Part shown: piece after piece, positions 39,726-45,376 of the stretch
Layout: every line of letters starts with the position of its first letter
How positions within the stretch are numbered: position 1 is the stretch's first letter
Source: Chloroflexota bacterium
GTDB lineage: Bacteria > Chloroflexota > Dehalococcoidia > Tepidiformales > Tepidiformaceae
Reading direction: 5' to 3'
DNA length: 64,000 nt
Assembly: GCA_026705605.1 (NCBI GenBank)
Contig: JAPPAK010000003.1
Coordinates: 124,728-188,727 of the forward strand
Position numbers and translations under genes: made by a program
The notes under the pieces: generated by a model
Told to the model about the DNA's origin: nothing
What the model saw: the letters and a program-made list of their open reading frames with translations, nothing else
The model's database searches: none

Positions 39726-40091
39726 ATGGCGCGAGAGTACATCGACGTTCTCCGGCTTCCGGAGAGCATGCCGTGGCATTACAGCCAAGCGGTAAAGGTG
39801 GGCGATACCGTCTACGTGGCGGGGCAGGTGGGGGCCGGCGAAGGCAGCATCGAGGCGCAGACGCAGAAGGCCTACGAGAGCGTCGTGGACGTGCTGGCGA
39901 AGGCAGGCGCGACGATGGACCACGTCGTGCGCGAAACCGTCTACCTGGCGGACCGAACGAAATTGCCGGAGGTGGCGAAAGTCCGGGAGACGTTCTACGG
40001 CGACCGCTTTCCGGCGAGCACGGCCGTCTTCAGTGGTTCGGGCGACGGCTACGACATCGAGGTCGAGGTGACGGCGGTTATCGACGACTAG
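39726..40091 (+). CDS. RidA/YjgF/UK114 family protein lacking the catalytic arginine
   Basis: 121 residues of the Rid fold: YSQAVKVGDTVYVAGQVG, TQKAYESVVDVLAKAGATMDHVV and FYGDRFPASTAV. RidA deaminates reactive enamines/imines using an Arg in the PAR(S/T) motif. Here that position reads PAST (Ser98), so the canonical imine-deaminase residue is absent and the protein likely belongs to another Rid subgroup. ATG 39726 follows GGGAGG. Its end overlaps the convergent cytidylyltransferase-like gene by 14 bases. Confidence 0.88.
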   Translation: MAREYIDVLRLPESMPWHYSQAVKVGDTVYVAGQVGAGEGSIEAQTQKAYESVVDVLAKAGATMDHVVRETVYLADRTKLPEVAKVRETFYGDRFPASTAVFSGSGDGYDIEVEVTAVIDD

Positions 40092-40815
40092 CAGCGCCGG
40101 CAGCGCTGGCCGCGAAGAGGCGCTCGGCCTCGCGCAGGTCGGCTGCGGTGTCGATGTCGTACCAGAAGTGACCGCTGATATCGACGGTTCCGAGGCGCCG
40201 GTCCCGCACGAGCATCGCGAAGATATCGCTGAGGCCGCAGTCGTCGGGGGCCTCAGCGACGGCGTCCCAGATGGCCGGGGAGCAGACGAAGGCGCCCGCA
40301 TCGAGCGCGTCCCAGCCGGCCACGGATTTGCCGATGGCGGTCACGAACCCGGAGGCGTCGGTAGTGAGCTTGGTGGCTTCGTCGGCGTAGGCGTCGGTGC
40401 GGGGCGAGCGGTCGGCGGCGACGCGGCAGGTGTCGCCGAGGGGGTCGGCGGCGGCGGAGTCGAGGAGGGCCTGGAGGAGCTGGGGGGAGAAGGCGTGGTC
40501 GCACATGACGAGGAGGAAGGGTTCTTCGCGGCAGAAGTCGTGGGCGGCGGCGAGGGAGTAGGACGCGCCCTGGTGGAAGCGGGGGTTGGCGACGAACTCC
40601 AGAGGAAGGCGAGCCCACTCCTGGGCGCCCTGGCGGACGGCGCGCTCGCCGTGGCCGGTGACGACGAGGGCCCGCTCGACGCCCGCTTCGGCAAGGGCGC
40701 TGAGGGTATGGCCGACGAGGGGTTTGCCCGCGAGGGGGACGAGGGGCTTGGGGAGGCTGGGACCGGTCTCGCTGAGGCGCTGACCACGGCCCGCCGCAAG
40801 GACGACTGCCTTCAT
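40078..40815 (-). CDS. Nucleotidyltransferase, sugar-/inositol-phosphate cytidylyltransferase-like
   Basis: NTP-transferase fold, 245 residues. KAVVLAAGRGQRL and PKPLVPLAGKPLVGHTL bind the NTP. SYSLAAAHDF and FLLVMCDHAFSPQLLQALL resemble the GxSV and GDH/ADH-x-(F/Y)-x motifs of inositol-1-phosphate cytidylyltransferases, and WYDIDTAADLREAERLF is a common C-terminal block of this family. No CDP-alcohol phosphotransferase domain follows. The product would be a CDP-activated polyol for phospholipid or solute synthesis; this is inference. ATG 40815 has GGAG upstream. Confidence 0.8.
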   Translation of the reverse strand: MKAVVLAAGRGQRLSETGPSLPKPLVPLAGKPLVGHTLSALAEAGVERALVVTGHGERAVRQGAQEWARLPLEFVANPRFHQGASYSLAAAHDFCREEPFLLVMCDHAFSPQLLQALLDSAAADPLGDTCRVAADRSPRTDAYADEATKLTTDASGFVTAIGKSVAGWDALDAGAFVCSPAIWDAVAEAPDDCGLSDIFAMLVRDRRLGTVDISGHFWYDIDTAADLREAERLFAASAAGAASRR

Positions 40816-40882
40816 GCACGCTCCGGCGGGCGTGAGCCCGGAACTCGGAGGCAATCGTAGCCGATTTCCGCCACGGGGCGAC

Positions 40883-40911
40883 TTGATAGGAACGCCTATC
40901 TGCGATACTTT
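40883..40911 (+). promoter_or_regulatory. Promoter (TTGATA-N17-TACTTT) overlapped by a 16-bp palindromic operator
   Basis: TTGATA (40883-40888) and TACTTT (40906-40911) are 17 bases apart. GATAGG-AACG-CCTATC (40885-40900) is a perfect inverted repeat that starts within the -35 and fills most of the spacer. This is a position where a bound repressor would exclude RNA polymerase. It drives the iron-type ABC genes, so a metal-dependent DtxR/IdeR-like repressor is the natural suspect (inference). The remainder of 40816-40981 holds the start of the divergent gene and a TACGAT at 40854-40859 on the minus strand. Confidence 0.65.
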
Positions 40912-40981
40912 GCCGTGGCTAACCCCGAGGCAGAGGCCGAATTTGAGCGCTTTCGCACTGCTGACGCGCGCACGACTGGGG

Positions 40982-42022
40982 ATGGACCCCCGTCCTTCGG
41001 ACGGGGCTGCCGGTGACCTCGTCACGAACGGCCTGTCGTTCTCCTACGGGGACGTGCGGGCAGTCGACGACGTCTCGGTCACGGTACCGGCGGGGACAGT
41101 CACGGCGCTCCTCGGCCCGAGCGGCTGCGGCAAGACCACGCTGCTGCGGCTCATTGCCGGGCTCGAACGCCCGGACAAGGGGGCCATCCACACGGGCGGC
41201 GAAACGTTGAGCACGCCCGATCGCGTGACGCCTCCGGAGAAGCGTCGCATCGGGATGGTGTTCCAGGAGGGGGCGCTCTTCCCCCACCTGAGCGTGGCGG
41301 AGAACGTGGCCTTCGGCCTGCCACGCGGACCGGAACGGGAACGCGACGTCGAGCAAGCGCTGGAACTCGTCGGTTTGGCGGGCATGGGGAAGCGCTCGCC
41401 GACCTCGCTCTCGGGTGGCCAGCGGCAGCGGGTCGCGCTGGCGCGGGCGCTGGCTCCGGGTCCGGATGTGCTGCTGCTGGACGAGCCGTTCGCGAACCTC
41501 GATCCGGCCCTGCGCGTCGAGCTGCGGACGGAGGTGGCCTCGCTGCTGCGGGCGCTCGGGATCACGAGCGTGTTCGTGACGCACGACCAGGAAGAGGCGT
41601 TCGTTATGGGCGCCCAGGTGATCGTGATGCGGGACGGACGGGTCCTGCAGAGCGCCCCGCCGAGCGAGCTGTACAGCCGCCCCACGAACCGCTGGGTGGC
41701 GAGCTTCGTGGGCGAGGCGAACGTGGTGCCCGGGCAGGGGGGCGCGGAGGCGGCGGAGACGATCGTGGGCTCGGTGCCGCTGGTGGAGGCAGGGCCGAAG
41801 ACGTGCGAGGTGCTGCTGCGGCCGGAGCACCTGGCGCTGGATGCGGGGGAGTCGTGGGAGGTGGAGGAGCTTGAGTTCTACGGGCACGACACGCTCTACG
41901 TGCTCAAGGGCGAGCACGGAGAGAAGCTGATGGTGCGCGCGAGCGGCGCACCACGGTTCGTCAACGGCGATCGCACGTCGGTGCGGTACGACGGCCCGCC
42001 GACAGTCGCCTTCGAAGCGTAG
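40982..42022 (+). CDS. ABC transporter ATP-binding protein, ferric iron/thiamine-type importer (FbpC-like)
   Basis: ATPase of a type I importer, 346 residues. Walker A GPSGCGKTTL, Q-loop FQEGALFPHLSV, signature LSGGQRQR, Walker B VLLLDEPFANLD and the VTHDQEEA switch are intact. The C-terminal ~110 residues form a TOBE-like regulatory domain (VLLRPEHLALDAGE). ATG 40982 begins just before the conserved GLSFSYGD. In-frame TTG and longer starts exist upstream, but no strong ribosome site decides. The permease starts 5 bases after the stop. Confidence 0.9.
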   Translation: MDPRPSDGAAGDLVTNGLSFSYGDVRAVDDVSVTVPAGTVTALLGPSGCGKTTLLRLIAGLERPDKGAIHTGGETLSTPDRVTPPEKRRIGMVFQEGALFPHLSVAENVAFGLPRGPERERDVEQALELVGLAGMGKRSPTSLSGGQRQRVALARALAPGPDVLLLDEPFANLDPALRVELRTEVASLLRALGITSVFVTHDQEEAFVMGAQVIVMRDGRVLQSAPPSELYSRPTNRWVASFVGEANVVPGQGGAEAAETIVGSVPLVEAGPKTCEVLLRPEHLALDAGESWEVEELEFYGHDTLYVLKGEHGEKLMVRASGAPRFVNGDRTSVRYDGPPTVAFEA

Positions 42023-42027
42023 GGGTC

Positions 42028-43659
42028 GTGCTGCGCGCGCCAGCCGTGATCGGCGCCACCAAGCGAGTGGCGGGCATCCGCGGGCCGCTCTGGCTGTGGG
42101 TCGTGGCGCTCATCATCGCGGCACTCTTCGCGGTCCCGGTCGGATACCTGGTCGTCCGCAACATCACCGAGGGGAGCGCCACGCTCGACGTCCTCTTCTC
42201 GCGTGAAATAGCCGCTCCCCTCGTGAACACCCTTGTGCTGGCGGTGGCTGTTTCGGCCGCGACGGCGGCCGTCGGAACCCTGCTGGCGTGGCTGACGATG
42301 CGGACGGACCTGCCGCTGCGCGGCGCCTGGCGTGTGATCTGTCCGCTGCCGCTCGTGCTGCCCTCGTTCGTGGCGGGAGCCGCGTTGCTGGCGGCCATCT
42401 CGCCCGGCGGGCTCGCGGAGGAGGTGCTGAACCCGCTGGGGTTTGGCGTACCGGCGCGCATCGAGGGGTTCTGGGGCTCGTTCGCGGTGCTGGTCGCGGT
42501 CTCCTACCCGTATGTGTACCTGCCGGCGGCGGCCCGCATCGGCGGATTGCCTCCCTCGCTGGAAGAGGCCTCGAGGATGCTGGGCGAGGGGGGCCTGGGG
42601 ACGTTCCGCCGAATCGTGTGGCCGCAGGTCCGAAGCGCCGTCCAGGCGGGCACGCTGCTCGTGTTCCTGTACGTGGTGAGCGAATTCGGCGTGGTGAAGC
42701 TGATGGGCTACGAGACGCTCTCCACCAACGTGTTCGTGAACCGCCTCTACAACGCACCGCTGGCCTTCGCGCTGGGGCTGATCCTGGCAGTGGTGGCGCT
42801 GGCGGTGGCAGGGCTGGAGCGGACGTCGGCAAGTCGCTCGCTGGCGCAGCTTGCGCCGGGCGGGACGCGGGGGCGGCGCGTTGCGCTGGGACCGTGGAAG
42901 GCGCCGGCGACGCTGGCGGCGGTCATCGCAGTCGGGTCGGGGCTGTTGGCTCCCGTCCTGGTCCTGGCGTGGTGGGGCTTCCGGGGCCTGGCGGGAGAGG
43001 GCAGCGGATTCGACCGGACGAGCGTGGACGTGAGCGCACTCGGGGGGCCGGTGCTGAACACGGTGATCGCGGCCGTTGTGACGGCCGCAGTGGCGGTGGT
43101 GGTGGTCCTGCCCCTCGCCTACCTGACGACTCGCTACGGGGGACGGGCGGCGGGGGCCGTGCACACGGTGGTAGCGGGCAGCTTCGCGGTACCGGGTCTG
43201 CTCATCGCACTGGCAGTGGTGTTCATGGCGCTCAAGGTTCCCGGACTCGGGTTCCTCTACCTTTCGCTTCCCCTGCTGGTCTTCGCCTACGTGGTTCACT
43301 TCGGCGTGCAGGCGCTTCGCAGCGCCGAGGTGGGGGTAGCGACGGTCGACCGGCGGCTGGAGGAGGCGGCGCAGATGCTGGGAGCGGGGAGATTGCGGCG
43401 GTTGCTGCGCATCGAGGCGCCGCTGATGGCTCCAGCGCTGGCGGCAGGCGGGGGGCTCGTGCTGCTCTCGACGATGAAGGAGCTTCCGGCGACGCTGCTG
43501 GCCGCGCCCGTCGGCTTCGAGACGCTGGCGACGCGCATCTGGAACGCGGAAGAGGACGGTTTCCTCGCGGACATGGGGATGGCGAGCGTGATCCTGGTGG
43601 CGGTCTCGGCGGTGCTGACGTGGCTGCTCGTGATCCGCAACGCGGAGCACCTGCGCTAG
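42028..43659 (+). CDS. ABC importer permease, duplicated ferric-iron type (FbpB-like)
   Basis: 543 residues with about twelve helices in two homologous halves, as in FbpB/SfuB. Each half carries the EAA loop that docks on the ATPase: EEASRMLGEGGLGTFRRIVWP in the first half and EEAAQMLGAGRLRRLLRIEAP in the second (both slightly over 20 residues in full). GTG 42028 starts 5 bases after the ATPase stop. No periplasmic/lipoprotein substrate-binding protein is adjacent or elsewhere in the window. The stop TAG forms a CTAG palindrome shared with the convergent oxidoreductase stop. Confidence 0.9.
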   Translation: MLRAPAVIGATKRVAGIRGPLWLWVVALIIAALFAVPVGYLVVRNITEGSATLDVLFSREIAAPLVNTLVLAVAVSAATAAVGTLLAWLTMRTDLPLRGAWRVICPLPLVLPSFVAGAALLAAISPGGLAEEVLNPLGFGVPARIEGFWGSFAVLVAVSYPYVYLPAAARIGGLPPSLEEASRMLGEGGLGTFRRIVWPQVRSAVQAGTLLVFLYVVSEFGVVKLMGYETLSTNVFVNRLYNAPLAFALGLILAVVALAVAGLERTSASRSLAQLAPGGTRGRRVALGPWKAPATLAAVIAVGSGLLAPVLVLAWWGFRGLAGEGSGFDRTSVDVSALGGPVLNTVIAAVVTAAVAVVVVLPLAYLTTRYGGRAAGAVHTVVAGSFAVPGLLIALAVVFMALKVPGLGFLYLSLPLLVFAYVVHFGVQALRSAEVGVATVDRRLEEAAQMLGAGRLRRLLRIEAPLMAPALAAGGGLVLLSTMKELPATLLAAPVGFETLATRIWNAEEDGFLADMGMASVILVAVSAVLTWLLVIRNAEHLR

Positions 43660-44564
43660 GAGCTGCGGGCGATCACGTTCTCGGCGAACCAGGCGATGTC
43701 GTCGAAGTCCGAAGAGGAGATGGCGACCTCCTCGACGCCAACCTCGGCGAAGCCGGCGACCTGCTCGAGCATGTTGTCGCCATCGCCGAAGAGGACGCCG
43801 TTGTGGTCCCACTGCGTGACCTTCACGGATCGGCCCCAGCCACGCGCCATCTGGGCGATGCCGCCGGCGATCTGGTCGGCGGCTTCCCGGGTCTGGCCGC
43901 GGGCGAGGATGACGTCGGAGGTGATGGCGAGGGTGGCGGGGTCGCGACCGATCTCCTCGCAGGCGGCGCGGGCGTGCTCGGCGAACTCAGCAACCTGGGC
44001 AGGACCGAGCTGCCAGGTGTTGACGGCGTCGGCCTGGCGCGCGGCAAGGCGGAGGAGAGCGCCACGGCGGTTGAGTCCGACCATGATGGGCGGGTGGGGC
44101 TGCTGCACCGGCTTCGGCGCGAAGGTGGCGCCCCCTTCGAGGCGGTAGTGCTTACCCTCGAACTCGGTCGTTTCCTGGGTCCAGAAGGACTTCAGGAGCT
44201 GGATGCCCTCCTCGAGCTGTTCGACTCGGTCGAGGAAGTCGAGCATCTCGAAGCCGTAGGGCTCGAAGTCGGCGTGCTCGTAGGCGGTGCCTATGCCCAG
44301 CAAAGCGCGCCCGTTCGAGAGGGTGTCGACCGTGACAACCTGCTTGGCGAGCTGGAAGGGCGGGCGGAACGGCATGCCCGTGACGTGCGTGCCGAGCCGC
44401 ATGTGCTGGGTCTGTCCCGCCACCCACGCAAGGTAGGTCCAGGCATCGGGCTGGTCGAAGGAGGGGTGGTCGACAGCGTTGAACGTCTCGAAGCCGAACT
44501 CATCGACCTCGCCGATCTGGTCGTTCAGGGCCCCTCCACCCGTGGCGACGAGGCCGAACTTCAC
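43656..44564 (-). CDS. LLM class oxidoreductase (bacterial luciferase-like, probably F420-dependent)
   Basis: 302-residue TIM-barrel of the luciferase-like monooxygenase family. Recognised by the N-terminal KFGLVATGGGA, a FETFNAVDHPSF strand, LGTHVTGMPFRPPFQLAKQVVTVDTLSNGRALLGIG (split motif; the SNGR-x-x-x-GIG loop is diagnostic) and HPPIMVGLNRRGALLRLAARQADAVN. F420 versus FMN cannot be read with certainty. GTG 44564 overlaps the stop of the acetoacetate decarboxylase-like gene. Last gene of a four-gene operon with a SnoaL-like protein, an SDR and the decarboxylase-like protein. Confidence 0.9.
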   Translation of the reverse strand: MKFGLVATGGGALNDQIGEVDEFGFETFNAVDHPSFDQPDAWTYLAWVAGQTQHMRLGTHVTGMPFRPPFQLAKQVVTVDTLSNGRALLGIGTAYEHADFEPYGFEMLDFLDRVEQLEEGIQLLKSFWTQETTEFEGKHYRLEGGATFAPKPVQQPHPPIMVGLNRRGALLRLAARQADAVNTWQLGPAQVAEFAEHARAACEEIGRDPATLAITSDVILARGQTREAADQIAGGIAQMARGWGRSVKVTQWDHNGVLFGDGDNMLEQVAGFAEVGVEEVAISSSDFDDIAWFAENVIARSS

Positions 44565-45376
44565 GGCGAAGAGGTTCCCGCCGAGGAGTTACCCGGAGCC
44601 TGTGTCGCGAGCAGCTCGAGGTCGTCGACCTTGCCGAACATGTAGGGCAGGAACGACTCACCGGGGACGCGCGTGAGGATCTCGCCGTGGGTGTAGGTAT
44701 CGCCTTCGCTGTAGCTCACGCCGAGCAGCTCACGGATGGGGATGTCGGCGACCGGGTCGTGGGGCGACTCGCGCAGCAGCACCTCGCCCTCAAGCTGCTC
44801 AATGAACCGGGTGCGGCCGGTGTGGCGCACCCGCACGAGAACGGGGTCGTTGTCGAAGCCGCGTCCGTCGGGGGCGGGCATGAACTTGAAGTAGAAACGC
44901 GAGCTCTCGGGCGATTCGCGCCCTTCCAGGCGTTCGACGACGCGCCCGCGCACTTCGATGTACACCTGCCCGTAGCGCTCGATGGTCCCCGTGATCTCAT
45001 CGCCATCGCGGCGAACGTGGATGTTGGCGACCTTCTTGGGCTCGCCGTAGAGCTCGCGCCCGAAGATGACGGCGCTGTCCGTCGACATGGGCATGGTGAT
45101 GGGGTAGTCGCCGACGATGCCCTCGTACTGGCAGCGGACGTTGAGCCCGCCCGCCCCGAACGGCTGGAGCGTGTTGCTGACGCCGATGTGGGAGACGCTG
45201 ACGGACGCGACAGGCTCGTCGGCCGGCTCCAGGGGCGGGGGGAGGATAGCCGCGATGACGTCCGGGTCGGTGCGGAAGCTGGCGGCGATGCCGCGGAACG
45301 ACTCGAACTCGGGGGTGGCGTAGAGCTTCTGGAGGCGGCGGACCTCCTCAAGGGTCTTCACGTAGCGGAGCTGCAT
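44561..45376 (-). CDS. Acetoacetate decarboxylase family protein
   Basis: 271 residues. The active-site lysine region GRELYGEPKKVANI contains K114/K115, aligning with the Schiff-base lysine of acetoacetate decarboxylase in E-x-G-x-PK context. The N-terminal RGIAASFRTDPDVIAAILPPPLEP and the beta-cone strands fit the family. Not all members decarboxylate acetoacetate; some are lyases or aldolase-dehydratases, so the substrate is open. ATG 45376 has GGAGG upstream on the minus strand. Coupled to the LLM oxidoreductase by a GTGA overlap. Confidence 0.88.
   Translation of the reverse strand: MQLRYVKTLEEVRRLQKLYATPEFESFRGIAASFRTDPDVIAAILPPPLEPADEPVASVSVSHIGVSNTLQPFGAGGLNVRCQYEGIVGDYPITMPMSTDSAVIFGRELYGEPKKVANIHVRRDGDEITGTIERYGQVYIEVRGRVVERLEGRESPESSRFYFKFMPAPDGRGFDNDPVLVRVRHTGRTRFIEQLEGEVLLRESPHDPVADIPIRELLGVSYSEGDTYTHGEILTRVPGESFLPYMFGKVDDLELLATQAPGNSSAGTSSP

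Follow-up and report, generated by a model that had tools for sequence, protein, structure and literature searches.

A conserved palindrome over the promoter of a ferric-type ABC importer in a Dehalococcoidia genus: a candidate single-dimer operator for a DtxR/IdeR-family metalloregulator

The window, a stretch of 64,000 nucleotides from a Chloroflexota bacterium (genome G000 below), contains a pair of genes coding for the ATPase and the fused permease of an ABC transporter, which are preceded by a divergently transcribed nucleotidyltransferase gene. A short palindrome lies in the intergenic region and overlaps the putative promoter of the transporter genes. The locus comprises the following features:

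40078-40815, minus strand: MobA-like nucleotidyltransferase gene, divergent, its start 70 bp from the palindrome
40883-40888, plus strand: putative -35 hexamer TTGATA, sharing GATA with the left arm of the palindrome, invariant in the nine genomes of the genus
40885-40900, no strand: candidate operator GATAGG-AACG-CCTATC, proposed site for one DtxR-family dimer, core ATAGG-N4-CCTAT at 40886-40899
40906-40911, plus strand: putative -10 hexamer TACTTT, 17 bp from the -35 hexamer, TAATTT in G004, five of six columns invariant
40917-40919, plus strand: probable transcription start region, placed from the position of the -10 hexamer, near the start of a GGCTAA that is invariant in the genus promoters
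40933-40936, plus strand: likely Shine-Dalgarno sequence GAGG, its AGG invariant in nine of nine genomes
40943-42022, plus strand: ABC ATPase gene, best solved relative 9j4r_B (8e-76, query 40994-42022)
42028-43659, plus strand: fused two-domain permease gene (PF00528), best solved relative 9j4r_A, "Iron ABC transporter permease" (1.1e-54)

A direct read of the letters agrees in coordinates, spacer and loop with the first-pass annotation, which had described a perfect inverted repeat inside a TTGATA-N17-TACTTT promoter. The arms GATAGG (40885-40890) and CCTATC (40895-40900) are separated by a 4-nt loop, and the palindrome shares GATA with the -35 hexamer and occupies the first 12 of the 17 spacer bases before TACTTT. 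The promoter itself is a putative one, assigned from conservation; a sigma-70 scan called no promoter at TTGATA-N17-TACTTT, and TACTTT agrees with TATAAT at three of six positions only. The ATPase gene probably starts at TTG 40943 rather than at ATG 40982, since four genus genomes out of nine read AAG at the latter, while the in-frame TTG is retained in eight (G004 is shifted by one base there).

The best solved relatives of both transporter subunits belong to an iron ABC transporter, in keeping with the importer type proposed in the first pass, and the curated NCBIfam cut-offs were reached by neither the ATPase, the permease nor the substrate-binding protein (SBP). No SBP gene adjoins the ATPase-permease pair. 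At a separate locus, each of the nine genus genomes codes for exactly one PF13343 (SBP_bac_6) protein, which in G000 is nearest to ferric-binding proteins (7w3w, 4.7e-63), and SBP, permease and ATPase together are, judged by their sequences, an importer of the FbpABC/FutABC type. The permease shares mostly 47-56% identity with relatives from Acidimicrobiia and other Actinomycetota, versus 35-40% with importers of its own family, and this closer actinobacterial relationship hints at a horizontal acquisition of the permease gene (42028-43659).

Symmetry alone is weak evidence for an operator, because the 192-bp region around the palindrome harbours seven inverted pairs of at least 6 nt. A search of the window with up to two mismatches returned two places, of which only the operator is exact, while shuffled sequences average 1.17 at that tolerance. 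Only one exact copy of the 16-mer exists in the 2,787,484 bases of the G000 genome; up to two mismatches yield 30 places versus 18 for the pattern read backwards, and loose matches in G000 are thus near chance. The exact 16-mer was accordingly dropped as a regulon marker on its own, given its one place in the genome. The relaxed pattern GATAGNNNNNNCTATC was set aside as well: beyond the importer site, its matches are not common to the genomes, except for GATAGCGGGGTCTATC in G000 and G006. The latter sequence is found at L066 1501-1516 (G000:C4:668929-668944) and is identical at G006:C2:112139.

What raises the palindrome above chance is conservation and location, not symmetry. An alignment of nine orthologous promoters has 20 invariant columns among the 29 that run from the -35 to the -10 hexamer, whereas the flanks are less well kept (11 of 50 columns upstream, 3 of 18 in 40925-40942). 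Within the same promoters the palindrome arms are invariant in 10 of 12 columns, compared to one of four in the N4 loop; imperfect right arms are found in G005 (GCTATC) and G004 (GCTGTC). The extended promoter pattern occurs at exactly one place in each of the nine genomes, in G004 with three mismatches. Two expectations raised earlier, that relatives would keep the block and that its position would be that of a repressor site, are thus borne out as far as the overlap with the -35 hexamer and spacer and the retention in nine of nine genomes are concerned, and binding itself is predicted.

The SBP gene carries a partner site. Its upstream region retains TTAGG-N4-(A/C)CT(A/T)A in all nine genus genomes, with perfect forms in G005 (GATTAGG-N4-CCTAATC) and G004 (TTAGG-N4-CCTAA). 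The genome scan suggested in the first pass was productive in part: the exact 16-mer has no second copy, but the broader WTAGG-N5-CTAW (WTAGGNNNNNCTAW) occurs at three places in G000, namely the importer promoter, the SBP promoter and a 23S rRNA gene, the last recognised by eye from its sequence. As WTAGGNNNNNCTAW was broadened after the SBP sites had been seen, this test is biased, and the family survey described below comes closer to an unbiased one. Across 18 genus sites (nine importer and nine SBP sites, picked by orthology with no genome dropped) C2 and T3 of the quintets are always retained, and changes fall at positions 1 and 4; the 18 importer quintets all have T at position 5. The earlier proposal of a new variant of a metal-repressor motif can be stated more precisely as a CCTAT form of a half-site that is conserved in the genus. 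Behind the SBP gene lie bacterioferritin and BFD genes (L070 610-1352, minus strand) in just two of the nine genomes, G000 and G006, and G001 has a fragment; given this narrow occurrence, they were rejected as a conserved iron operon beside the SBP gene and do not count as general evidence.

The family was surveyed in a sample of 38 genomes; 15 of its members outside the genus encode a relative of the SBP with an E-value no higher than 1e-30. A TTAGG-N4-CCTAA-type pattern is found within 350 bp upstream of 11 of these 15 ferric SBP loci, where dinucleotide shuffles lead one to expect 0.02, and at none of 21 control ATPase loci of the same or related families, anywhere in the locus. The four SBP loci without the strict pattern in that range are L208, where it is present 662 bp upstream, L213, for which only 166 bp of upstream DNA were at hand, and L204 and L203, where degenerate forms (TAAGG-TTGT-CCTAA and TTAGT-CTAA-CCTTA, respectively) were picked out by eye and post hoc. 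Within the genus, the strict pattern fails at one SBP site out of nine (ACTTA in G008) and likewise at a single importer site out of nine (in G004). In the g13 genomes the SBP site lies between TTGACA and TAATCT, spaced 17 bp apart, and these promoters appear, by their sequence, to follow the same logic as the importer promoter of the window. The invariance of C2 and T3 in the family sites is partly a matter of construction, as the search pattern itself fixed these bases.

Counted over genomes the motif is not enriched: in the search of the 38 genomes, WTAGGNNNNCCTAW was found at 44 places in the 29 non-genus genomes, versus 63 for the backward control (summed counts), so that only the location of the sites is informative. 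Perfect TTAGG-N4-CCTAA makes up 24 of the 44 sites. Nine of these precede a ferric SBP gene (one of them 662 bp off), two an FTR1 permease gene, one the gene of a FepB-type SBP and four that of a cupredoxin-like lipoprotein, and eight are without a recognised iron gene or partner. One further site, with a single A/T exchange (L266), lies between divergent genes for a FepB-type SBP and a siderophore-interacting protein (SIP). At the level of the family, the motif hence does precede metal genes, as had been anticipated. Apart from this mixed A/T site, the CCTAT form was seen before no iron gene outside the genus, and ATAGG-N4-CCTAT matches in other genera, which fall mostly within long ORFs, were discarded. 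Among the relatives of the permease in Actinobacteria (41 loci read, four without an SBP in reach), a site precedes the SBP gene in 5 of 37 readable cases, with 0.56 expected.

The cupredoxin-like lipoprotein (L265 997-1500, minus strand; L267, L221, L218) has a half-site at its start in G015, G035, G033 and G023, matches PF13473 at or slightly under the cut-off, and is possibly a metal-uptake component not recognised so far. Perfect half-sites are also found in G060, G028 and G032 (L270, L272 and L237, around position 1500); L272 and L237 have similar downstream DNA, with no clear gene or Rfam match there.

A candidate reader of these sites is encoded once per genome. PF02742 marks a single gene in each of the nine genus genomes, and likewise one gene per genome in 35 of the 38 family genomes; the DtxR-family protein (L079 1222-1911, minus strand) matches PF01325, PF02742 and PF04023 over cut-off, i.e., the helix-turn-helix, dimerisation and FeoA/SH3 domains, and the best solved relative of the G000 protein is Mycobacterium tuberculosis IdeR (MtIdeR; 1.4e-27). 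Of 35 orthologues found, 30 were aligned, and every one of them has TPPSVAGM as its recognition helix; the CCTAT variant thus has no counterpart change in the reading head. In the same 30 orthologues, Met10, Cys102 and His98 of MtIdeR are replaced by Asp, His and Tyr throughout. The primary metal site hence differs from that of iron-type IdeR (Met10 and Cys102), and it also departs from that of MntR, for which a passage of PMC10317159 gives Asp or Asn in place of Met10 and Glu in place of Cys102: Asp is present, His stands instead of Glu. The position of Gln43 is occupied by Gly; according to PMC8464063, a Q43A variant of Saccharopolyspora erythraea IdeR still recognised its target. A search with GATAGGNNNNCCTATC at up to two mismatches gave no match at any of the 27 regulator loci of the genus (9 DtxR, 18 FUR).

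Four rival explanations were weighed. That the symmetry merely accompanies promoter conservation or arose by chance, with no protein using it, is quite improbable: it would sit well with the frequency of 6-bp repeats in the region, the overlap of the left arm with the -35 hexamer and the decay of the right arm in G004 and G005, but quintets of the same spacing recur at the SBP gene in nine of nine genomes and at SBP promoters of the family, and the arms are kept far better than the loop. An RNA hairpin, acting as attenuator or riboswitch in a leader made from an upstream start, is extremely unlikely. The palindrome lies upstream of the predicted transcription start, no relevant Rfam match was obtained over 40000-44800, and the motif recurs as DNA between the -35 and -10 hexamers of other promoters, which together outweigh the fact that the change of CTATC to CTGTC in G004 would retain a G-U pair.

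Binding by a Fur-family protein in place of DtxR seems improbable, even though the nine genus genomes carry two FUR-domain genes each and the GATA and TATC ends resemble those of a Fur box. The spacing of GATA-N8-TATC is even, unlike that of the odd-centred Fur palindromes, and the sister sites at the SBP genes (TTAGG-N4-CTAA) mostly lack GATA; the part common to all is TAGG-N4-CTA, a DtxR quintet pair. More deserving of consideration, though still unlikely, is a DtxR protein that senses manganese, or both manganese and iron, with an importer tuned to Mn or to both metals. The Asp in place of Met10 points this way under the ligand rule of PMC10317159 (as given in that passage), as does the NCBIfam score of the Thermus MntR model, 118.2 versus 116.4 bits for the actinobacterial DtxR model, both far under their cut-offs. 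On the other hand, the Cys102 position holds His and not the Glu of MntR, and the genes behind the sites are of ferric SBP, FTR1, SIP and FepB types.

The palindrome is thus most probably an operator for the single DtxR/IdeR-family metalloregulator of the genome, of a compact half-site type. This reading builds on the sequence, its conservation, its location over the putative promoter, the motif at both loci and the presence of the regulator gene, all of which are observed; from these we infer binding, repression, the identity of the metal and the stoichiometry of one dimer. Of iron versus manganese sensing we are less sure than of the operator; the Asp/His site does not by itself single out one metal. 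In a metal-replete, presumably iron-replete, cell a metal-loaded DtxR dimer would occupy 40885-40900, cover the -35 hexamer and spacer, keep off RNA polymerase and thereby silence the ATPase-permease pair, while the sister site would silence the gene of the ferric-binding protein in parallel. Upon a fall in iron the dimer would lose its metal and leave, and the two parts of the split FbpABC/FutABC-type importer would then both be synthesised. For this family of Dehalococcoidia as a whole, it is reasonably likely that single-dimer half-sites are the normal operator of iron uptake, that they are read by an Asp/His DtxR protein, and that two sites, one of them a CCTAT variant, co-ordinate the split importer.

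The operator can be set beside several known systems. The Fur box, defined by an odd-centred array of GATAAT hexamers, differs on inspection from the GATA-N8-TATC found here. The Escherichia coli MntR box AACATAGCAAAGGCTATGTT has an ATAG-N6-CTAT skeleton with GC as inner bases; skeleton and spacing recur in the window, where the inner bases are GG and CC (compared by eye, without a tool). With the FbpABC and FutABC ferric importers (9j4r, 7w3w) the system shares all three components, since SBP, fused permease and ATPase match iron-importer chains best, but the SBP gene of this genus lies apart from the ATPase-permease pair, and two operators are therefore needed.

The DtxR/IdeR likeness noted in the first pass holds for the TAGG-N4-CCTA core with its CCTAT halves, but not for the classical box. 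According to a passage of PMC10317159, the classical iron-sensor box spans 19 bp and offers four CCTAA repeats to two DtxR-family dimers. Quintets, their spacing within the footprint of one dimer and the overlap with a promoter are common to this box (TTAGGTTAGSCTAACCTAA) and the operator, which has one quintet pair only. Among the sites listed for the 38 genomes there is no full 19-bp box and no TTAGGTTAGCCTAA, which a perfect full box carries on one of its strands; the N9 form is in none of the loci scanned, and a second quintet pair for a second dimer is absent from all 30 sites examined (nine importer, nine genus SBP and 12 family sites), even under a minimal rule.

The closest counterpart is the 14-bp half-site of S. 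erythraea, of which GATAGG-N4-CCTATC is, by its sequence, a CCTAT form. As reported in parts of PMC8464063, one IdeR dimer binds this two-quintet site, with repeats 4 bp apart, at an apparent KD of 78 nM, and TTAGGNNNNCCTAA was proposed in 2021 as the redefined consensus from work on this one actinobacterium; binding was lost upon a change of T3, or of C1 and C2 together. Bare minimal sequences failed to bind in the same work, and the quintet-pair rule is therefore necessary, not sufficient. Both systems (C23S1/nuo in S. erythraea) have two inverted CCTAN quintets, a 4-bp spacer, no second quintet pair and a DtxR protein in the genome; at 40886-40899 T replaces A at position 5, the site overlaps a putative iron-uptake promoter, and the motif recurs at other iron genes of the genome and its relatives. 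Passages of PMC8464063 and PMC10317159 (2021, 2023) pose it as an open question if further species possess half-sites and which function these serve. Half-sites before genes of ferric importers, FTR1 and siderophore uptake, with no full box seen, offer a testable answer, and the nine genus promoters are natural variants whose tolerated changes can be set against the mutants already assayed in vitro. Relative to the S. erythraea sites, the importer quintet here is CCTAT with an outer G/C, the phylum is Chloroflexota, and the half-site is a recurrent element of iron-uptake genes rather than a lone nuo site.
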